This document shows positions 3,154 to 14,087 of a stretch of 53,866 nt of DNA, piece by piece; the first letter of the stretch is position 1, and each line of letters starts with the position of its first letter. The notes below the pieces were generated by a model, which ran no database searches, was not told the DNA's origin, and saw only the letters and a program-made list of their open reading frames with translations. Origin of the DNA: a virus. Made by a program: the position numbers and the translations under genes. The DNA lies in IMG/VR virus record IMGVR_UViG_3300027709_000001, positions 1 to 53,866 of that record; one strand, written 5' to 3'.

Positions 3154-4572
3154 CTAATCTGTATTAAGATTATTTAAAAATTGTCTTAACTTTGTTGAGT
3201 CTGTTTCTGCATGAACCTTAGGTACAGGCCTACCTTCATCTGGTTCTTTTATAGGTTTATCTTCTGTTACTGTACTTGTTTTCTTTAGTCCTGTTAATAT
3301 AGGAGATGTAGCAATATTAGATTGATACGCTTCGTCTTCGTCTAAATCTGAAATACGTAAACTATCAATATCAAATTCTAAATCAATTTTACTTCCTATA
3401 CCACTTGATGATCTAGTCTTCATTAACTGTATTTGATAACGTCCACGCTCACGCATAGCTCTACTTGTAAAGATACCTATAACATTATCTGCTGTTTGAA
3501 TCTTACTTAATCCACCTGCAATATGTGAGTGATCAAATTCTATTTCTTCAACACTTTGTCTGTTTAACTGTGATGCTGTTACAAAGATAATGCCTAATTC
3601 CATTGATAAATTTCTTAGTTCTTCTGATACAAATTTATCTTTAACATATAAATCACTAGGTGATACTTTTTTACTTAACGGCATTAATAAGTCTAAATAA
3701 TCTACCAGCAATACATCTATTCTACGCCCTGTTTTAATTTCATATTCTTTAACAAAACTTCTAATATCATTTGTATTTTTACCACTTGGCATATACTTAA
3801 TTTGAAATGCTCCAGCCTTCTTACCAACTAGTCTAACTTTCATTTCAACACCATCTAAGTCTTTAAATATTTCACGAGTTGGTACTTCAGTTAACATACT
3901 ATCAATACGCATAGCAACTAACTGTTCAGAAAGTTCTAATGTTAAGTATACAACATTAAGTCCTTTTAGTACCCAGTTGACACCTAAGTTAGCTAAGAAC
4001 ACAGATTTACCTGCACCTGATCCACCTGCAAATATATTAAGTTCGCCACTATTAAAACCACCAAATAGTTTTCTATCTAATGATTCCCATCCTGTGCTTA
4101 CTTGTCCGTTATTATTTTTTAAAGCTAATAATCTTTGTTTAGGTTCTTTAAAATAATCAGTTCCAAGATCTTTTTGTAAACCTATTTGTACTGCTTGTTT
4201 TACTAAATCTTCTACAGGTCCATAGTCACCTTTTTCTAATAAGTCAGCACTTTCAAGAATTGCTTTTTCTAAACTTTTATGTCTACAAAAAGTTTCAAAG
4301 TCAGTTAATAACCAATCATAGTGTTGTTCATTTAAGTCTTTAGATACTTCTAATTTTATATCACAAGAACTGTTTATAATTTCTTGTGTAGGAAGTGTAT
4401 TATGTTTACTAACAAAGTCTTGTAAGAATTGTGCAGTTGGTTGTAATTGACGATCAAATAAAGATGGATCAAATATACCTTGACAACGCACAAAAGTTTG
4501 TGCATCGCTTAACATTACTTCTAAATAAGTTTTTTGTATATTGTATCCGTAGTCTATATTTTGTTTAGTCAT
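3154..4572 (-). CDS. 41: replicative DNA helicase, T4 gp41/DnaB-like
   Basis: 472 aa. The N-terminal part (about 1-150) is the helical DnaB-type domain. The C-terminal RecA-like motor carries Walker A GGSGAGKS (about residues 183-190) and Walker B VLLVDYLDLL. It would unwind the replication fork 5'->3' and partner the primase at 7871-8854. The C-terminal 60 residues are charged and low in complexity. The gene has its own promoter embedded in the end of the upstream carbamoyltransferase gene, and TAATG overlaps the two genes. Confidence 0.93.
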   Translation of the reverse strand: MTKQNIDYGYNIQKTYLEVMLSDAQTFVRCQGIFDPSLFDRQLQPTAQFLQDFVSKHNTLPTQEIINSSCDIKLEVSKDLNEQHYDWLLTDFETFCRHKSLEKAILESADLLEKGDYGPVEDLVKQAVQIGLQKDLGTDYFKEPKQRLLALKNNNGQVSTGWESLDRKLFGGFNSGELNIFAGGSGAGKSVFLANLGVNWVLKGLNVVYLTLELSEQLVAMRIDSMLTEVPTREIFKDLDGVEMKVRLVGKKAGAFQIKYMPSGKNTNDIRSFVKEYEIKTGRRIDVLLVDYLDLLMPLSKKVSPSDLYVKDKFVSEELRNLSMELGIIFVTASQLNRQSVEEIEFDHSHIAGGLSKIQTADNVIGIFTSRAMRERGRYQIQLMKTRSSSGIGSKIDLEFDIDSLRISDLDEDEAYQSNIATSPILTGLKKTSTVTEDKPIKEPDEGRPVPKVHAETDSTKLRQFLNNLNTD

Positions 4573-7760: not shown

Positions 7761-7883
7761 TTATTTGTATATAAATGGATCTTTAGCTTGTAGTTCTTTA
7801 AGACGCTTTTTAAATCTACGTCTTTCTTTCCACTTATAATACGGGGAACAAATTTTGTCCCATAGGTTCTTTAACCAAACCAT
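7761..7883 (-). CDS. small basic protein (40 aa)
   Basis: ATG at 7883 overlaps the 3' end of the primase gene by 13 nt and has an AAGGAG site inside it. The sequence begins MVWLKNLWDKICSPYYKW and continues as a Lys/Arg-rich helix, so it looks like a peripheral membrane or nucleic-acid-binding peptide. Confidence 0.6.
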   Translation of the reverse strand: MVWLKNLWDKICSPYYKWKERRRFKKRLKELQAKDPFIYK

Positions 7884-8854
7884 TTTTTACTCCTTAACTT
7901 AATCTTAAGTTCGTTTTCCTCTGCAGATGAAACAATAGTATGGAGTGTAAACATTCTTCCGTATTTTTTAATTGCATCATTAACATCTTTTACATCATTT
8001 TCCCATTCAGGCATACTAACGGACCAACCTAATTCCATTGCCGACTCTGACAAATGTTGTCCATTTTCGTCTCTGTCTGGAACAAGTATTACTTGCTTAT
8101 TTAAACTATTCAGCAGTAGTGCCTGTTGATCTCTGACTTCGCTACCCATTAATGCACACCCATCTATACCTATAGCATCAAGTGGCCCTTCTACAAGTAT
8201 TACAAAAATCCTATTATAGTGTTGTGCATCTAAATTAAAAACGTATCCAGGTTGTTGTTCAGACAGATATTTTGGATTACCTTTTGTAATTTTACGTGCA
8301 GTCCAACCAACAATATCTCCTTTATAATAAAACGGAATAATAAGTCTGTCCCTATACCCTAGATTAGGACTCCAATGAAAGTTATAATCTTCAACGTTTA
8401 GTTGACGTGATTTCATATACTCTAATATTTTTGTTAAATTATCATCAGGATTTTTATACCAAGTAATTGGTTTAGCATCTGCTGGTAATTCAACTGATTT
8501 AAATTCTGGAAGATTAACTATTGGCTCAATAAAGCCGCCAACTTTATTAAATTCTAAAACCTGTAATGCAAGTGAAGTAATAGTAGTATCTGATGCACCT
8601 AACCATTGTAACAAACTACGCATCTTCCTAGATAGTTTGCGACCTTTTTGGTAACTTGCTTTAAAGCCACAATTGAAACAATGGAAACTAACTCCACCAT
8701 CACCATTTGTAATTAAACCGCCACGTTGTCTTTTATCTTGCGTTGTTCCATTATGATGACAACATGGTGCATTAAAACTAGTCCAGCCACTCGGAGTAGT
8801 CTTCCGTTTTGCGGGTAGATGTGTCGTAAGTGTTTCTAGTACTAGATTACTCAT
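7871..8854 (-). CDS. 61: DNA primase (DnaG/gp61-type)
   Basis: 327 aa. The N-terminal zinc-binding region has CCHH at 31-34 and CFNC at 59-62. The TOPRIM core has EGPLDA (about 218-223) and DRDENG (about 255-260). It would make RNA primers for lagging-strand synthesis with the helicase at 3154-4572. The ATG at 8854 lies 6 nt after a consensus TATAAT, so the message should be leaderless. Confidence 0.9.
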   Translation of the reverse strand: MSNLVLETLTTHLPAKRKTTPSGWTSFNAPCCHHNGTTQDKRQRGGLITNGDGGVSFHCFNCGFKASYQKGRKLSRKMRSLLQWLGASDTTITSLALQVLEFNKVGGFIEPIVNLPEFKSVELPADAKPITWYKNPDDNLTKILEYMKSRQLNVEDYNFHWSPNLGYRDRLIIPFYYKGDIVGWTARKITKGNPKYLSEQQPGYVFNLDAQHYNRIFVILVEGPLDAIGIDGCALMGSEVRDQQALLLNSLNKQVILVPDRDENGQHLSESAMELGWSVSMPEWENDVKDVNDAIKKYGRMFTLHTIVSSAEENELKIKLRSKKWFG

Positions 8855-9730: not shown

Positions 9731-10102
9731 ATGCTATTAAAAGATATAGAAACTAAATTCCCATTTTTAAGCGTTGTCCAGTACGGTGGACAAGAATATA
9801 TAGGCATAATCGCAAATCAAGACCAGCAAGTAACGTCGATGTACGTATATAATATGCTCCGTGAGGATGACGAAAAAGCCCACTTTATTAAGATGGGCGA
9901 AACCTGGTGGTTTGAAAGTAATAGGACTATACCTATAAGCATATTCCTTCCCAAGGAATTTGTTAGATTTAGACACGCATTAGTCACTATGAACACTAAA
10001 GATGTCAAAGTAACTCTAGGACCTGTAGTAAATTTAAACAATTTAACAATTAAAAGAGTTAAACGTAAGAGCGTTCAGCTAGTTAGGAAACCTAAATCAT
10101 GA
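9731..10102 (+). CDS. hypothetical protein
   Basis: 123 aa, beta-rich with a basic C-terminal tail (about 105-123, many Lys/Arg). No family recognised. It overlaps the next gene by 4 nt (ATGA) and forms a two-gene plus-strand island between minus-strand blocks. Confidence 0.7.
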   Translation: MLLKDIETKFPFLSVVQYGGQEYIGIIANQDQQVTSMYVYNMLREDDEKAHFIKMGETWWFESNRTIPISIFLPKEFVRFRHALVTMNTKDVKVTLGPVVNLNNLTIKRVKRKSVQLVRKPKS

Positions 10103-10758
10103 ATATTATTGTAGCAGGATGTAGCTTTTCAGATTATCTTGACGATAATAATTATGTTTACGGTGACCGTTTAGCCATGATGCTTGGAGCCAAGTATATC
10201 CATGAAGGTGCTGGAGCAGGATCGAATTGGCGTATTTGGCGTAGAATAACTAAAATGATTCTAGATGGAAAACTTATGCCTGATGACATTGTTATTATAC
10301 AATATACAGGACTTGAACGTAAAGAGTTTTGGTCATCCAATGAACAAACAAGCACTAGTAAACATAGAGAACCATATAATAATGATGGAAGTTTACTACG
10401 TTATAAAGCTAAAGCACACGAATGGCATAAAGATAAAGAAGCAAATTTTTTAAAAATGTATGAAGAGAATCATGTGTCAGCTGAGTTTTGTGAAGAACAA
10501 TTTTATACACAACATCATATGTTTCAGTATATGTTAAAAGCACATAACGTAAAAGCTATATTCTTTTATTCACGCCATAGACAACAGTATCCTCTAATAG
10601 ATCATTTTAAAATAACTGTGTTTGATGAAGGTGATGAGTTTAGACATAATAAAGATACTTGGTATTCTTCAGAAGATAATTCACATCTATGTGATAAAGG
10701 TCATTTACAGTTAGCTAAAAAAATGCTTACGCATTTAAAAGATATTAATTTTGTTTAA
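10099..10758 (+). CDS. SGNH-hydrolase-like protein
   Basis: 219 aa. The N-terminal block I variant is GCSFSDYLD (candidate nucleophile Ser at about residue 9), with Gly-rich GAGAGSNWR following and a C-terminal SHLCDKGH carrying the Asp/His pair of block V. It is a shorter relative of the protein at 2363-3145. Its 3' end overlaps, tail to tail, a minus-strand coding extension ending at 10745. Confidence 0.65.
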   Translation: MNIIVAGCSFSDYLDDNNYVYGDRLAMMLGAKYIHEGAGAGSNWRIWRRITKMILDGKLMPDDIVIIQYTGLERKEFWSSNEQTSTSKHREPYNNDGSLLRYKAKAHEWHKDKEANFLKMYEENHVSAEFCEEQFYTQHHMFQYMLKAHNVKAIFFYSRHRQQYPLIDHFKITVFDEGDEFRHNKDTWYSSEDNSHLCDKGHLQLAKKMLTHLKDINFV

Positions 10759-10882
10759 TACGTTTCTTAATTACATTGTAACATAATTCACAGTAATATA
10801 AACCTTTGAAACAGAAGAGTTTAGGTTCAGGCTCGTCTGGTAACCAGCCTAGCTTACAGATATAACAACTTGTTATTTGTAA
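10745..10882 (-). CDS. zinc-ribbon extension without a start codon, probable -1 frameshift product of the upstream gene
   Basis: A 45-codon open frame with CYIC (residues 6-9) and CELC (31-34) knuckles and a basic C-terminus (IKKRIKQN). No ATG, GTG or TTG is in frame, but the frame is joined to the end of the 10873-11604 gene at the heptamer A AAA AAT (10882-10888). Translation slipping by -1 there would replace the last residues of that protein with this ribbon. A stem-loop starts just after the heptamer. A sequencing or assembly indel is the other explanation. Confidence 0.5.
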   Translation of the reverse strand, partial: LQITSCYICKLGWLPDEPEPKLFCFKGLYYCELCYNVIKKRIKQN

Positions 10883-11604
10883 TTTTTTCGAGATAGCTTT
10901 TCTCGATAGTGTTGCGGTGCAAATACAGAATTATGAATCCATTGTGTAAGTCGATTAATTTTAGTTCTATGATCACCTACAGCAGTTTCCATTTGAAATT
11001 CTTCACGCTTATACGGAATTATTTGACATAGTGGCATTCCACGCTTGAACAATACTGTTTCATCCGGCTTCGCTTCAAAGAATGTATTAACGTGCATCTC
11101 ATGATAAGCATCAGTATCAACACTTCCTGTTAATACTTCTAAGTGTGGTTCTACATGATAGAACGGCCGAGTTATTAAACAGCTATAGCCTTTATCTGTT
11201 TTTACTTCCCAGGGCATTTGAAACTTAAATGCTCCAGGCCATTGATCTTCTCTAAAAGGATAGTTACCTATTTGTTCATGTGGATGGGTCGCGGCACTAA
11301 ACAATGGTCGCCCGTTTTGATTTAAGTTTGGCGGTATTTGATAACTTATTTCAAATTCTTTATTATCAACTGTTCTATTTTTAACAACTTCATAGTCACA
11401 CCATAGTGGAATAATATATCCCATACTAATTATGTCCATTATACCTGGACAACTTCTTACAGTATTCCAAGGAACATCTCCAACCTCTCTCTTAGGCTTT
11501 TGATCTTTAAACCACTTAGGCCAAAACTCATAAGCTGGAACAGGAGGCATAGTTTCTTCTAGTTCTTTATATTGTGTAAAAAATAATATATTAGTTGGTT
11601 TCAT
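10873..11604 (-). CDS. conserved-looking phage protein of unknown function
   Basis: 243 aa, rich in aromatic residues and Pro. Notable segments are SCPGIMDIISMGYIIPLW (about 51-68) and an RGMPLCQIIPYKRE region near 190. No catalytic motif is recognised. Its stop codon lies 7 nt after a slippery A AAA AAT, and the -1 frame encodes a two-knuckle zinc ribbon, so a longer form of about 285 aa is possible. It starts 2 nt after the 2OG oxygenase gene. Confidence 0.75.
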   Translation of the reverse strand: MKPTNILFFTQYKELEETMPPVPAYEFWPKWFKDQKPKREVGDVPWNTVRSCPGIMDIISMGYIIPLWCDYEVVKNRTVDNKEFEISYQIPPNLNQNGRPLFSAATHPHEQIGNYPFREDQWPGAFKFQMPWEVKTDKGYSCLITRPFYHVEPHLEVLTGSVDTDAYHEMHVNTFFEAKPDETVLFKRGMPLCQIIPYKREEFQMETAVGDHRTKINRLTQWIHNSVFAPQHYREKLSRKNYK

Positions 11605-11606
11605 AA

Positions 11607-12188
11607 TTATTCTTGAAAAAATTGTCCACCTGGTTCATCAAGACCTTGTCTAATTGTTTTAAAGACTAATGTTATTCTAGGTGTTGTTTTAAAATAAGAT
11701 CCGTAATGTTCAATTTCAGCTGGAAATATTAAAAGTCTATTTTGTTCATATTCAATTTTTGCTACATTTAAATCATCATCAGGATCTGGTCTATAAAAGA
11801 ATTCGCCGCCTTCACCTTTAGGAGTCATCATTAACATCACAGTATGTCCTGCGTCTCCCAGCCCTTTAGAATCTACATGAAATGCACCCGACATACCTGG
11901 ATGTTGTACATTAAAATATATTCTATTAAAGTTAATATCATATTCAAAAAGTTTTTTAATTTTTCTTGTCATATACTGCATCATATGATCAGTTGGATTA
12001 AAATCATGTGAGTACATCTTTCCAACTTCTTTACGAGAACGCTCAACAAAGTAGTGGGGATATTGATTTAAAAATGTGTCGCCTAGGTATGAAGTTAAGT
12101 CAGGATCTAACCAATTATCCAGTATCTTTACTTTTCCATCCGGTGTTGATTTCATGTTTACACTTACTGCATTTCCATTTGTACTCAT
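11607..12188 (-). CDS. 2OG-Fe(II) oxygenase, prolyl 4-hydroxylase-like
   Basis: 193 aa from 12188, or 182 aa from the internal ATG at 12155; neither has a strong ribosome site. The core shows the iron motif HVD in AFHVDSKG, the distal His in PAEIEHYGSYF, and Arg in PRITLVFK for 2-oxoglutarate. The family hydroxylates peptides or other substrates; the substrate here is unknown. Its 5' end overlaps a 45-aa zinc-ribbon gene in another frame. Confidence 0.82.
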   Translation of the reverse strand: MSTNGNAVSVNMKSTPDGKVKILDNWLDPDLTSYLGDTFLNQYPHYFVERSRKEVGKMYSHDFNPTDHMMQYMTRKIKKLFEYDINFNRIYFNVQHPGMSGAFHVDSKGLGDAGHTVMLMMTPKGEGGEFFYRPDPDDDLNVAKIEYEQNRLLIFPAEIEHYGSYFKTTPRITLVFKTIRQGLDEPGGQFFQE

Positions 12189-12252
12189 TAATATATACTA
12201 GACAGCCAGTTCTACAATTCGGACACTGGACTAACGTCTCCCCCTTTTGCAT
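12115..12252 (-). CDS. 45-aa zinc-ribbon protein overlapping both neighbours
   Basis: ATG at 12252 with a GAGGG site 8 nt upstream. It holds CPNC (residues 10-13) and CSKC (28-31), a textbook ribbon. It begins inside the 3' end of the DnaE-like gene (41-nt overlap) and runs into the 5' end of the oxygenase gene (41-74 nt overlap, depending on which start is used), each time in a different frame. Confidence 0.65.
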   Translation of the reverse strand: MQKGETLVQCPNCRTGCLVYINEYKWKCSKCKHEINTGWKSKDTG

Positions 12253-12808
12253 CTAATAAGCCCTCACATATCAAATTCATTTGTACCACAATTGCCATAG
12301 CATAGGCAATTGCGTGTGCTTTTTTGAAATAGTATTCATTATTCTTCGGCCTCGTCCATATCGTGTCTTTCATATCGTTCCAGGTCTTCCCTAGTAGGTG
12401 GCGTTTCCCCGGACGTATCATTGCTAGGACCATAGCGAGTTGTTCCACGCTTTGCGGCTTCATTTTTTCTAAAATTGAACCATGATCGCCTACGTGAAAG
12501 AGTTGTTCTACGAAATCGGTGTGTTCTAGAAGTGACCACATTGGCTCCTTTGCTATCAATGTATTTAGATGATCTTCATTTTTAATGTCTTTATAAAGGC
12601 TGACGTTCAAGAAGTCTAGTTTGAAATAGCCTCTGTCATCAGCAGTTTTATAATCAATTGTTGACATATTATCCACAGGATTGGTAGGAATTTCAGTAAA
12701 GTAAACTCCTGTGTTATGCTTCTTTTCTATATTTAATCTTGCAATTCGATGTTTAATTACTTTAAGTATATCATCTCTATCTGCAAAATCAATGTCAATG
12801 TCTGGCAT
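12212..12808 (-). CDS. miniature DNA polymerase III alpha-like (C-family palm) protein
   Basis: 198 aa against more than 1,100 for DnaE. In DnaE order it keeps PDIDIDF (residues 2-8, matching the two palm aspartates), FKLDF (62-66, matching the Lys/third catalytic Asp motif KFDF), MIRPG (130-134, like the YRPG motif) and KAHAIAYA (163-170, like KSHSAAYA). PHP, OB and beta-binding parts are absent. A tiny polymerase, a nucleotidyltransferase or a host-replisome decoy are all possible. It overlaps the upstream 52-aa gene by 14 nt. Confidence 0.7.
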   Translation of the reverse strand: MPDIDIDFADRDDILKVIKHRIARLNIEKKHNTGVYFTEIPTNPVDNMSTIDYKTADDRGYFKLDFLNVSLYKDIKNEDHLNTLIAKEPMWSLLEHTDFVEQLFHVGDHGSILEKMKPQSVEQLAMVLAMIRPGKRHLLGKTWNDMKDTIWTRPKNNEYYFKKAHAIAYAMAIVVQMNLICEGLLDAKGGDVSPVSEL

Positions 12809-12953
12809 TTATTCTATCCATGGCTTCTATTATTTCTTTTGTTGTATAATTATGTTTTGGTTCTGTGGATTCTTTTTTCTTAAAGATTCTATCATAGTTT
12901 TTATCATACTGCTTTTTATCTTTAATAGGTCTTTGTCTACTGCCCTTACTCAT
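12795..12953 (-). CDS. small basic phage protein (52 aa)
   Basis: ATG at 12953 overlaps the upstream stop (ATGA) and follows AAAGGAA. It begins MSKGSRQRPIKDKKQYDKNY, a pattern found in many short phage proteins, and is strongly basic up to residue 36 with a helical end. Function unknown. It overlaps the DnaE-like gene by 14 nt, suggesting translational coupling. Confidence 0.7.
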   Translation of the reverse strand: MSKGSRQRPIKDKKQYDKNYDRIFKKKESTEPKHNYTTKEIIEAMDRINARH

Positions 12954-13636
12954 AAATTACTTTCCTTTGCTATTTCTTTAACTAACTCAACATCAGCTAT
13001 ATGTCTTTTAAATCGCATAGCCCAATGTTTTGGATCCATGACATGATATACAATTTGTAATTGTTCATCACTAAATTTACTTAACATCTGTTTACCGCTA
13101 TTAGTATTAAGTATTAACCACGGACTTATTTTTCCATCTTTAATATCTTGTGTAGCACGATTTAAACTTGAATAAGAAAAATAGTGTTGCCAAGGCGCTT
13201 CTTTTTCAACGCCCCAATCCATCATTGTTTTAATACTTCTTTCAAGTGCAGTTTCAACACTTTCTTTAAGAATTAATTCTAACGCATACTTTTCATATAA
13301 TTCTTCTCTACACCAGTGGTCTAGTTTAACTCCACTAGTAACAACATAGTCTACATATTTGTCAGGATATAAAGGTCGTACGTTGCTGACAAAACTACCA
13401 AACTTAACAAAAGCATTATAATAAGGACTATCACAAAAGTCTTCATAGGTTTTATTTCCTTCAAATCTTTGGCATAACTGATAGAACCTATTAAACGTTA
13501 AGAATCCTAATTGTACGCTCTTTTCATCTTTCTGTAAATGACGTCGTTTCTTTTCGCACATATGAACTGCGAGAGTTTTTTCTCTTGTATAACTTGATCC
13601 ACAATATTTACAAGTATATGGTTTAGAATTTGACAT
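12950..13636 (-). CDS. C2H2 zinc-finger phage protein
   Basis: 228 aa from the ATG at 13636; the frame is open further upstream but that would overlap the previous gene for nearly 100 nt. Residues 5-31 form a zinc finger (YTCKYCGSSYTREKTLAVHM, then a further His/Cys). The rest is helical and aromatic-rich. No T4 counterpart could be assigned, but the location among replication genes suggests a DNA role. Confidence 0.75.
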   Translation of the reverse strand: MSNSKPYTCKYCGSSYTREKTLAVHMCEKKRRHLQKDEKSVQLGFLTFNRFYQLCQRFEGNKTYEDFCDSPYYNAFVKFGSFVSNVRPLYPDKYVDYVVTSGVKLDHWCREELYEKYALELILKESVETALERSIKTMMDWGVEKEAPWQHYFSYSSLNRATQDIKDGKISPWLILNTNSGKQMLSKFSDEQLQIVYHVMDPKHWAMRFKRHIADVELVKEIAKESNL

Positions 13637-14087
13637 CGTTTTTCTCGTGGCCCAAGTCTTGTGCAAGTTCTTTAAGTTCTGCTTTTGTAGATATCCTAGC
13701 AAGGAGTTCTGCATCATCTTCTTTCATATTTGGGTAGAGATTTAATAAAAACTTAGATGCTATATTTTTGCCACCCTTTTTCTTTAATGGTACCCAATCA
13801 TGTACACGTGATTGTCTTTTAACATTGTGCGTACAACATAACAGTTGCCATAACAACTTGTAGTGCTTACTAATAACATTCCAATTTTTATTATACAACT
13901 CATTAGTTGCAATAACGGCCCATTCCTGTGCATCACGCTTACCCTTAACAAGACTTATATACCTGTTTAAGAGCCAAAACTTTTCTTTAATAATTTGTGT
14001 GCGTTCTTCATCAGTATATTCGTTCCATACGGATTTACTATCAGTATCGATTGCATAAAAGATTTCTTTGTTGGATAGTCTACTCAT
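13623..14087 (-). CDS. hypothetical replication-region protein
   Basis: 154 aa, helical and basic, ending in an acidic/polar tail. I do not recognise a family with certainty; the position (own early-type promoter, followed by a zinc-finger protein and the DnaE-like gene) suggests a role in DNA metabolism. The last 14 nt overlap the start of the next gene. Confidence 0.7.
   Translation of the reverse strand: MSRLSNKEIFYAIDTDSKSVWNEYTDEERTQIIKEKFWLLNRYISLVKGKRDAQEWAVIATNELYNKNWNVISKHYKLLWQLLCCTHNVKRQSRVHDWVPLKKKGGKNIASKFLLNLYPNMKEDDAELLARISTKAELKELAQDLGHEKNDVKF

Follow-up and report, generated by a model that had tools for sequence, protein, structure and literature searches.

C-family polymerases are familiar as very large single chains. 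What, then, is encoded by a 198-codon gene of an uncultured marine T4-like phage whose product carries the signature motifs of that family? The gene lies in a 54-kb fragment (53,866 nucleotides), the whole of which we analyzed and refer to as the window. The original prediction took its product to be a miniature second polymerase core, serving either as a tiny polymerase or nucleotidyltransferase in its own right or as a decoy for the host replisome. Sequence comparisons point to a different answer: the 198-aa protein is probably one of two subunits, the C-terminal one, of a minimal C-family DNA polymerase resembling Pol III alpha.

Catalytic motifs of the 198-residue protein and its kinship with DnaE

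The ORF begins with ATG and is read from the minus strand, an orientation that the original prediction had left unstated. All of the motifs quoted there were located within it, and they follow one another (DxD...D, KHxxG, FKxDF, RPG, KxHAxxYA) as they do in bacterial DnaE:

12212..12808, minus strand: 198-aa product, probable C-terminal subunit of a split minimal Pol III alpha (assigned from PHROG 11778, IMG/VR loci and DnaE alignment)
12785..12805, minus strand: PDIDIDF (aa 2-8), with the two palm aspartates D3 and D5, aligned with E. coli D401 and D403; identical in 90/90 homologues
12704..12721, minus strand: KHNTGV (aa 30-35), aligned with E. coli KHAGGV 510-515 (K510-H511); H31 and G34 identical in 90/90
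12605..12622, minus strand: KLDFLN (aa 63-68), with the third aspartate D65 and K63, aligned with E. coli D555 and K553; identical in 90/90
12404..12418, minus strand: IRPGK (aa 131-135), fingers motif aligned with E. coli R639-P640; R132 and P133 identical in 90/90
12299..12325, minus strand: KKAHAIAYA (aa 162-170), fingers motif aligned with E. coli NKSHSAAYA 757-765 (K758-H760); H165 and Y169 identical in 90/90

The chain starts at the DxD strand, with MPDIDIDF at its N-terminus. The full catalytic triad is kept, as predicted, and D3, D5, D7, H31, G34, K63, D65, R132, P133, H165 and Y169 are each identical in all 90 aligned homologues. The ordered motif series did not reappear once when the protein was shuffled 200,000 times, nor did any other of the window's 178 stop-to-stop frames of at least 60 aa contain it. 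Purifying selection acts on the gene, with a dN/dS of 0.13-0.16 relative to its nearest relatives, L001-L003.

What has been lost differs in part from the earlier description, in which the PHP, OB, fingers and clamp-binding regions were all gone or collapsed. The PHP, OB and clamp-binding regions are indeed missing, but the fingers are reduced rather than gone: RPG and KxHAxxYA are kept, while the segment that separates RPG from KxHA has shrunk from about 115 residues in DnaE to about 28. The HhH and C-terminal domains of DnaE are also absent from this chain of 198 aa in total, for which Pfam offers only a weak fingers match (PF17657, DNA_pol3_finger; E=0.015, under the Pfam cut-off), and the insertions that separate the motifs in DnaE have been cut out. 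Beyond these losses, the ORF also lacks the GRGS half of the palm.

The closest family match is PHROG 11778, 'DNA polymerase' (E=5e-69, covering 181/198 aa), and the large DNA polymerases of phrog_405 match at 8e-4; NCBIfam contains no usable family for this protein. A single-sequence search of the PDB was uninformative, its one match being non-significant and to a designed protein, so a profile was needed. The profile, built from 14 diverse members, matched nothing but chains of Pol III alpha, the best of them at E=0.0065; the matches fall in separate stretches, namely the DxD, FKxDF...RPG and KSHA regions. Aligned by hhalign with a DnaE profile (gammaproteobacterial only), the C-half family scored 46.2 over residues 28-135, compared with a maximum of 24.8 for 40 column-shuffled DnaE profiles, and its scores against ten other window proteins were noise (≤17.1). 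Judged by the PHROG 11778 E-value, the PDB profile result and the hhalign score relative to shuffled controls, the resemblance of the 198-aa protein to DnaE is homology, not chance.

An AlphaFold model of the protein (mean pLDDT 77.5) places strands at residues 3-7 and 62-67; its confidence drops in residues 1-60, the part expected to pack on the N-terminal half described below. The seven best PDB fold matches (Foldseek) are all Pol III alpha, with probabilities of up to 0.95 and E-values of 0.055 or worse, and the eight best viral fold matches comprise four named DnaE or DNA polymerase and four that are nameless. Given the low confidence in the palm half and the modest E-values, this modeled fold supports a DnaE palm/fingers assignment without proving it.

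The separately encoded GRGS half

The GRGS segment of DnaE directly precedes the DxD strand. Searching related genomes with PF07733 recovered separate proteins of about 170-190 aa whose C-terminal end reads GVGRGSSVASYVLYLIGVHRINSIQYGLDWREFLR. Relatives of this N half occupy at least 456 loci in IMG/VR; searched against the PDB, its profile matches Pol III alpha at 8e-5, and the N half also matches phrog_11127, 'DNA polymerase', at 6e-39. In E. coli DnaE numbering, the N half stops at residue 393 and the 198-aa protein starts at 399. When the 12 available N+C pairs were joined in silico, hhalign placed them on DnaE 271-642 in a single collinear stretch (Prob 96%, score 79.4; null maximum 25.2). 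The structural model of the N half reached a pLDDT of 57, and its fold search was uninformative.

Searches of the 54-kb window with PF07733 and with the N-half alignment did not find this partner. A basic 52-aa ORF containing KGSRQR (12795-12953, minus strand) was considered as a source of the GS motif in trans and rejected, as tblastn found no homologue in any relative. It shares 14 bases with the start of the polymerase half, and in RaK2, GAP32 and Phosso a small gene likewise directly precedes theirs.

Longer relatives of the window carry both genes. All four marine contigs over 235 kb contain the two halves: the long contigs found via the C half (G001, G002) have the N half, and the longest two found via the N half (G023, G024) have the C half. 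The original prediction had placed a C-family core beside a family B polymerase. This holds for the relatives, with gp43 present in 4/4 long marine contigs and in 4/4 jumbo phages tested; within the window itself, gp43 was not found. The order C - N - gp43 is consistent across the four long contigs, which suggests genomes of roughly 350 kb. The halves lie about 120 kb apart in G001 (N half at 183130-183681, C half at about 61204) and in G023, and the N half is 28-31 kb from the family B polymerase (arithmetic from the coordinates of the four long contigs). Shorter contigs contain one half only, as would be expected if the genes are far apart. One 167-kb contig (G003) was examined as a possible N-less case and set aside: gp43 is missing from it too, so it is probably a fragment without that region. 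A GroES family search aimed at locating the N region came back mostly empty.

Among cultured phages, 59 of 60 listed C-half records are also among the listed N matches (lists compared by eye), the sole exception being PP728206, a 109-kb record. Because the window contains neither the N half nor gp43, we infer the pair in the window's own phage by analogy with these relatives.

Distribution, gene neighborhood and a one-piece relative

The C half was identified by tblastn in 63 phage records, including RaK2-like and PA5oct-like phages, Atu_ph07, Phosso, SCTP-2 and XacN1. Cultured jumbo-phage members are 38-53% identical to the 198-aa protein and retain the DxD and K-x-D motif. IMG/VR contains at least 548 confirmed C-half loci; among uncultured marine phages the split form is frequent and shows strong conservation. 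In Atu_ph07 (NC_042013.1; L095:5902-6471), the annotated 'DNA polymerase' start (5977 in the locus) omits the DxD, while the open frame runs further upstream, through IPDIDIDF.

The genes around the C half are conserved at IMG/VR loci with enough flanking sequence, where the following four lie on the same strand throughout:

13623..14087, minus strand: upstream neighbor, phrog_11758-like, function not known; 79/79 loci
12950..13717, minus strand: upstream neighbor, phrog_11058, function not known, with a C2H2-like zinc finger; 79/79 loci
7871..8854, minus strand: downstream neighbor, DnaG-type primase, gp61-like (phrog_47, E=6e-39); 53/53 loci
3154..4572, minus strand: downstream neighbor, gp41-like DnaB replicative helicase, matching the annotated RaK2 gp41; 52/53 loci

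The primase, helicase and phrog_11058 are common to 7/8 cultured jumbo-phage loci, XacN1 being the exception. The N half, for its part, is close to the gene for the clamp loader in RaK2, Atu_ph07, SCTP-2, GAP32 and XacN1. Thus both halves are embedded among replication genes. The occurrence of phrog_11058 and the phrog_11758-like gene immediately upstream of the polymerase half at 79/79 loci suggests that they too have a replication role, so far unrecognized. Between the polymerase half and the primase, the window encodes a 2OG-Fe(II) oxygenase-like protein (11607-12188), a DUF6065 protein (10873-11604) and a DUF6071 protein (10099-10758); this spacing is shorter in many relatives. A DnaQ-like exonuclease was considered as an obligate partner and dismissed, having a match in just 4/9 records. 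Nor did we find a PHP or clamp-binding part, or a proofreading part that is regularly associated.

Many marine T4-like phages encode a further C-family polymerase in one piece:

L188:1429-3063, plus strand: one-piece C-family polymerase (also in L087, L190-L193 and L283-L362)

This enzyme, about 545 aa where complete and without a PHP domain, occurs in 6 of the 22 C-half contigs searched and at no fewer than 232 loci in IMG/VR. It adjoins gp41 in the contigs read, matches PF07733 at 1e-41 and PF17657 at 8e-16, and has its nearest phage-collection match, at 36% identity, in LR756508, a 484-kb uncultured phage. It shares the C-family core with the split pair and is found on the same contigs as the C half, which is retained in 15/15 tested contigs that encode it. 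Unlike the pair, it joins a GRGS-type motif (TRGSAGSS) and the DxD in a single chain, with longer fingers and an extra C-terminal part, and its resemblance to DnaE is far stronger than that of the pair (hhalign score 186). It is absent from the window and from all four long marine contigs, and none of the contigs that contain it extends to the gp43 region.

Predicted role of the split polymerase

A split minimal Pol III alpha was first described in 2021, in group 2.2 jumbo phages, where one-strand synthesis or repair was proposed as its role (Viruses 13:63, PMC7824862). Before that, genome papers had mentioned, for CBB, a truncated Pol III alpha (PMC5259590) and, for Atu_ph07, a Pol III alpha subunit (PMC6102473). 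The split enzyme is not mentioned in those portions of a 2024 phage polymerase survey (PMC11348598) that we considered, and we found no biochemical or other laboratory work on it in the open-access literature, to which our search extended (subscription papers lay outside it). The 198-aa protein belongs to this already described kind, split minimal Pol III of PHROG 11778. It has the same size, DxD start, Mg- and template-binding part and motifs as the jumbo-phage C half (PHROG 11778), sits in the same gene block and, in its relatives, is accompanied by the same partner (the PHROG 11127 N half) and by a family B polymerase; it differs in coming from an uncultured marine fragment that contains neither partner nor gp43. 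The original prediction was therefore a correct observation of something that the 2021 paper and the earlier genome reports had already described in kind. Added here are at least 548 IMG/VR loci, an invariant primase/helicase gene block and a coexisting one-piece, PHP-less DnaE.

We consider it likely, from the sequence relationships set out above, that the N and C subunits assemble and are catalytic. The C subunit would supply the DxD and the third aspartate, which bind two metals, together with shortened fingers bearing the RPG and KxH residues; the N subunit, from its separate gene, would supply the GRGS helix for the triphosphate, and the two together would form one Pol-beta-like nucleotidyltransferase active site. 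Unlike in bacterial DnaE, the GRGS portion of the palm would come from a protein of its own, as it does in the relatives.

This division of labor bears directly on whether the 198-aa protein could transfer nucleotides alone, as the original prediction had envisaged. Its single chain does hold all three catalytic aspartates and the fingers residues. The triphosphate-holding GRGS (GS) motif, however, is missing from that chain and encoded in relatives as a separate protein, and AlphaFold confidence falls in just those residues, 1-60, where contact with the N half is expected; self-sufficiency is very unlikely. Small host-takeover proteins do occur in phages, and a protein that resembles DnaE yet is without most of its domains invites the other early suggestion, that of a catalytically dead decoy or inhibitor that mimics DnaE in the host replisome. 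We regard this as highly improbable. No catalytic residue varies among 90 homologues from many hosts, the partner half is conserved in parallel, and the gene holds an invariant place in the phage replication cluster, by the primase and helicase; moreover, the clamp- and tau-binding regions that a decoy would be expected to keep are among the missing parts.

An active split pair might instead do a non-replicative job, such as end tailing or the synthesis of a nucleotide second messenger. Enzymes with the Pol-beta-type fold carry out many reactions other than polymerization (PMC11646218), and the severe shortening of the stretch between RPG and KxHA could fit such a change of use. Set against this, the RPG and KxHAxxYA fingers residues that are kept are specific to DnaE, and the neighbors are replication genes, so we judge a role of this kind unlikely.

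Within a T4-like replisome, the two-subunit polymerase would be a low-processivity auxiliary enzyme beside the family B replicase: gp43 would carry out bulk synthesis, while the split enzyme would act distributively near gp61 and gp41. With no PHP domain, clamp motif or proofreading part, it would be suited to primers or gaps, and a primer-extension or gap-filling role near the primase-helicase is a possibility that we raise with some reserve. More tentatively still, marine T4-like jumbo phages might run a mixed replisome, in which a Pol III core assembled in trans takes primers from the primase ahead of gp43, and to which one branch adds the one-piece C-family polymerase.

In marine phages the split form is abundant and occupies an invariant position next to the primase and helicase genes, which suggests that it is a core replication part. 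If the two-subunit reading is true, these phages would encode a C-family polymerase that is split by nature and little larger than a minimal catalytic core; with about 185 + 190 residues and all catalytic residues retained, it would approach the smallest working core of the bacterial replicase.
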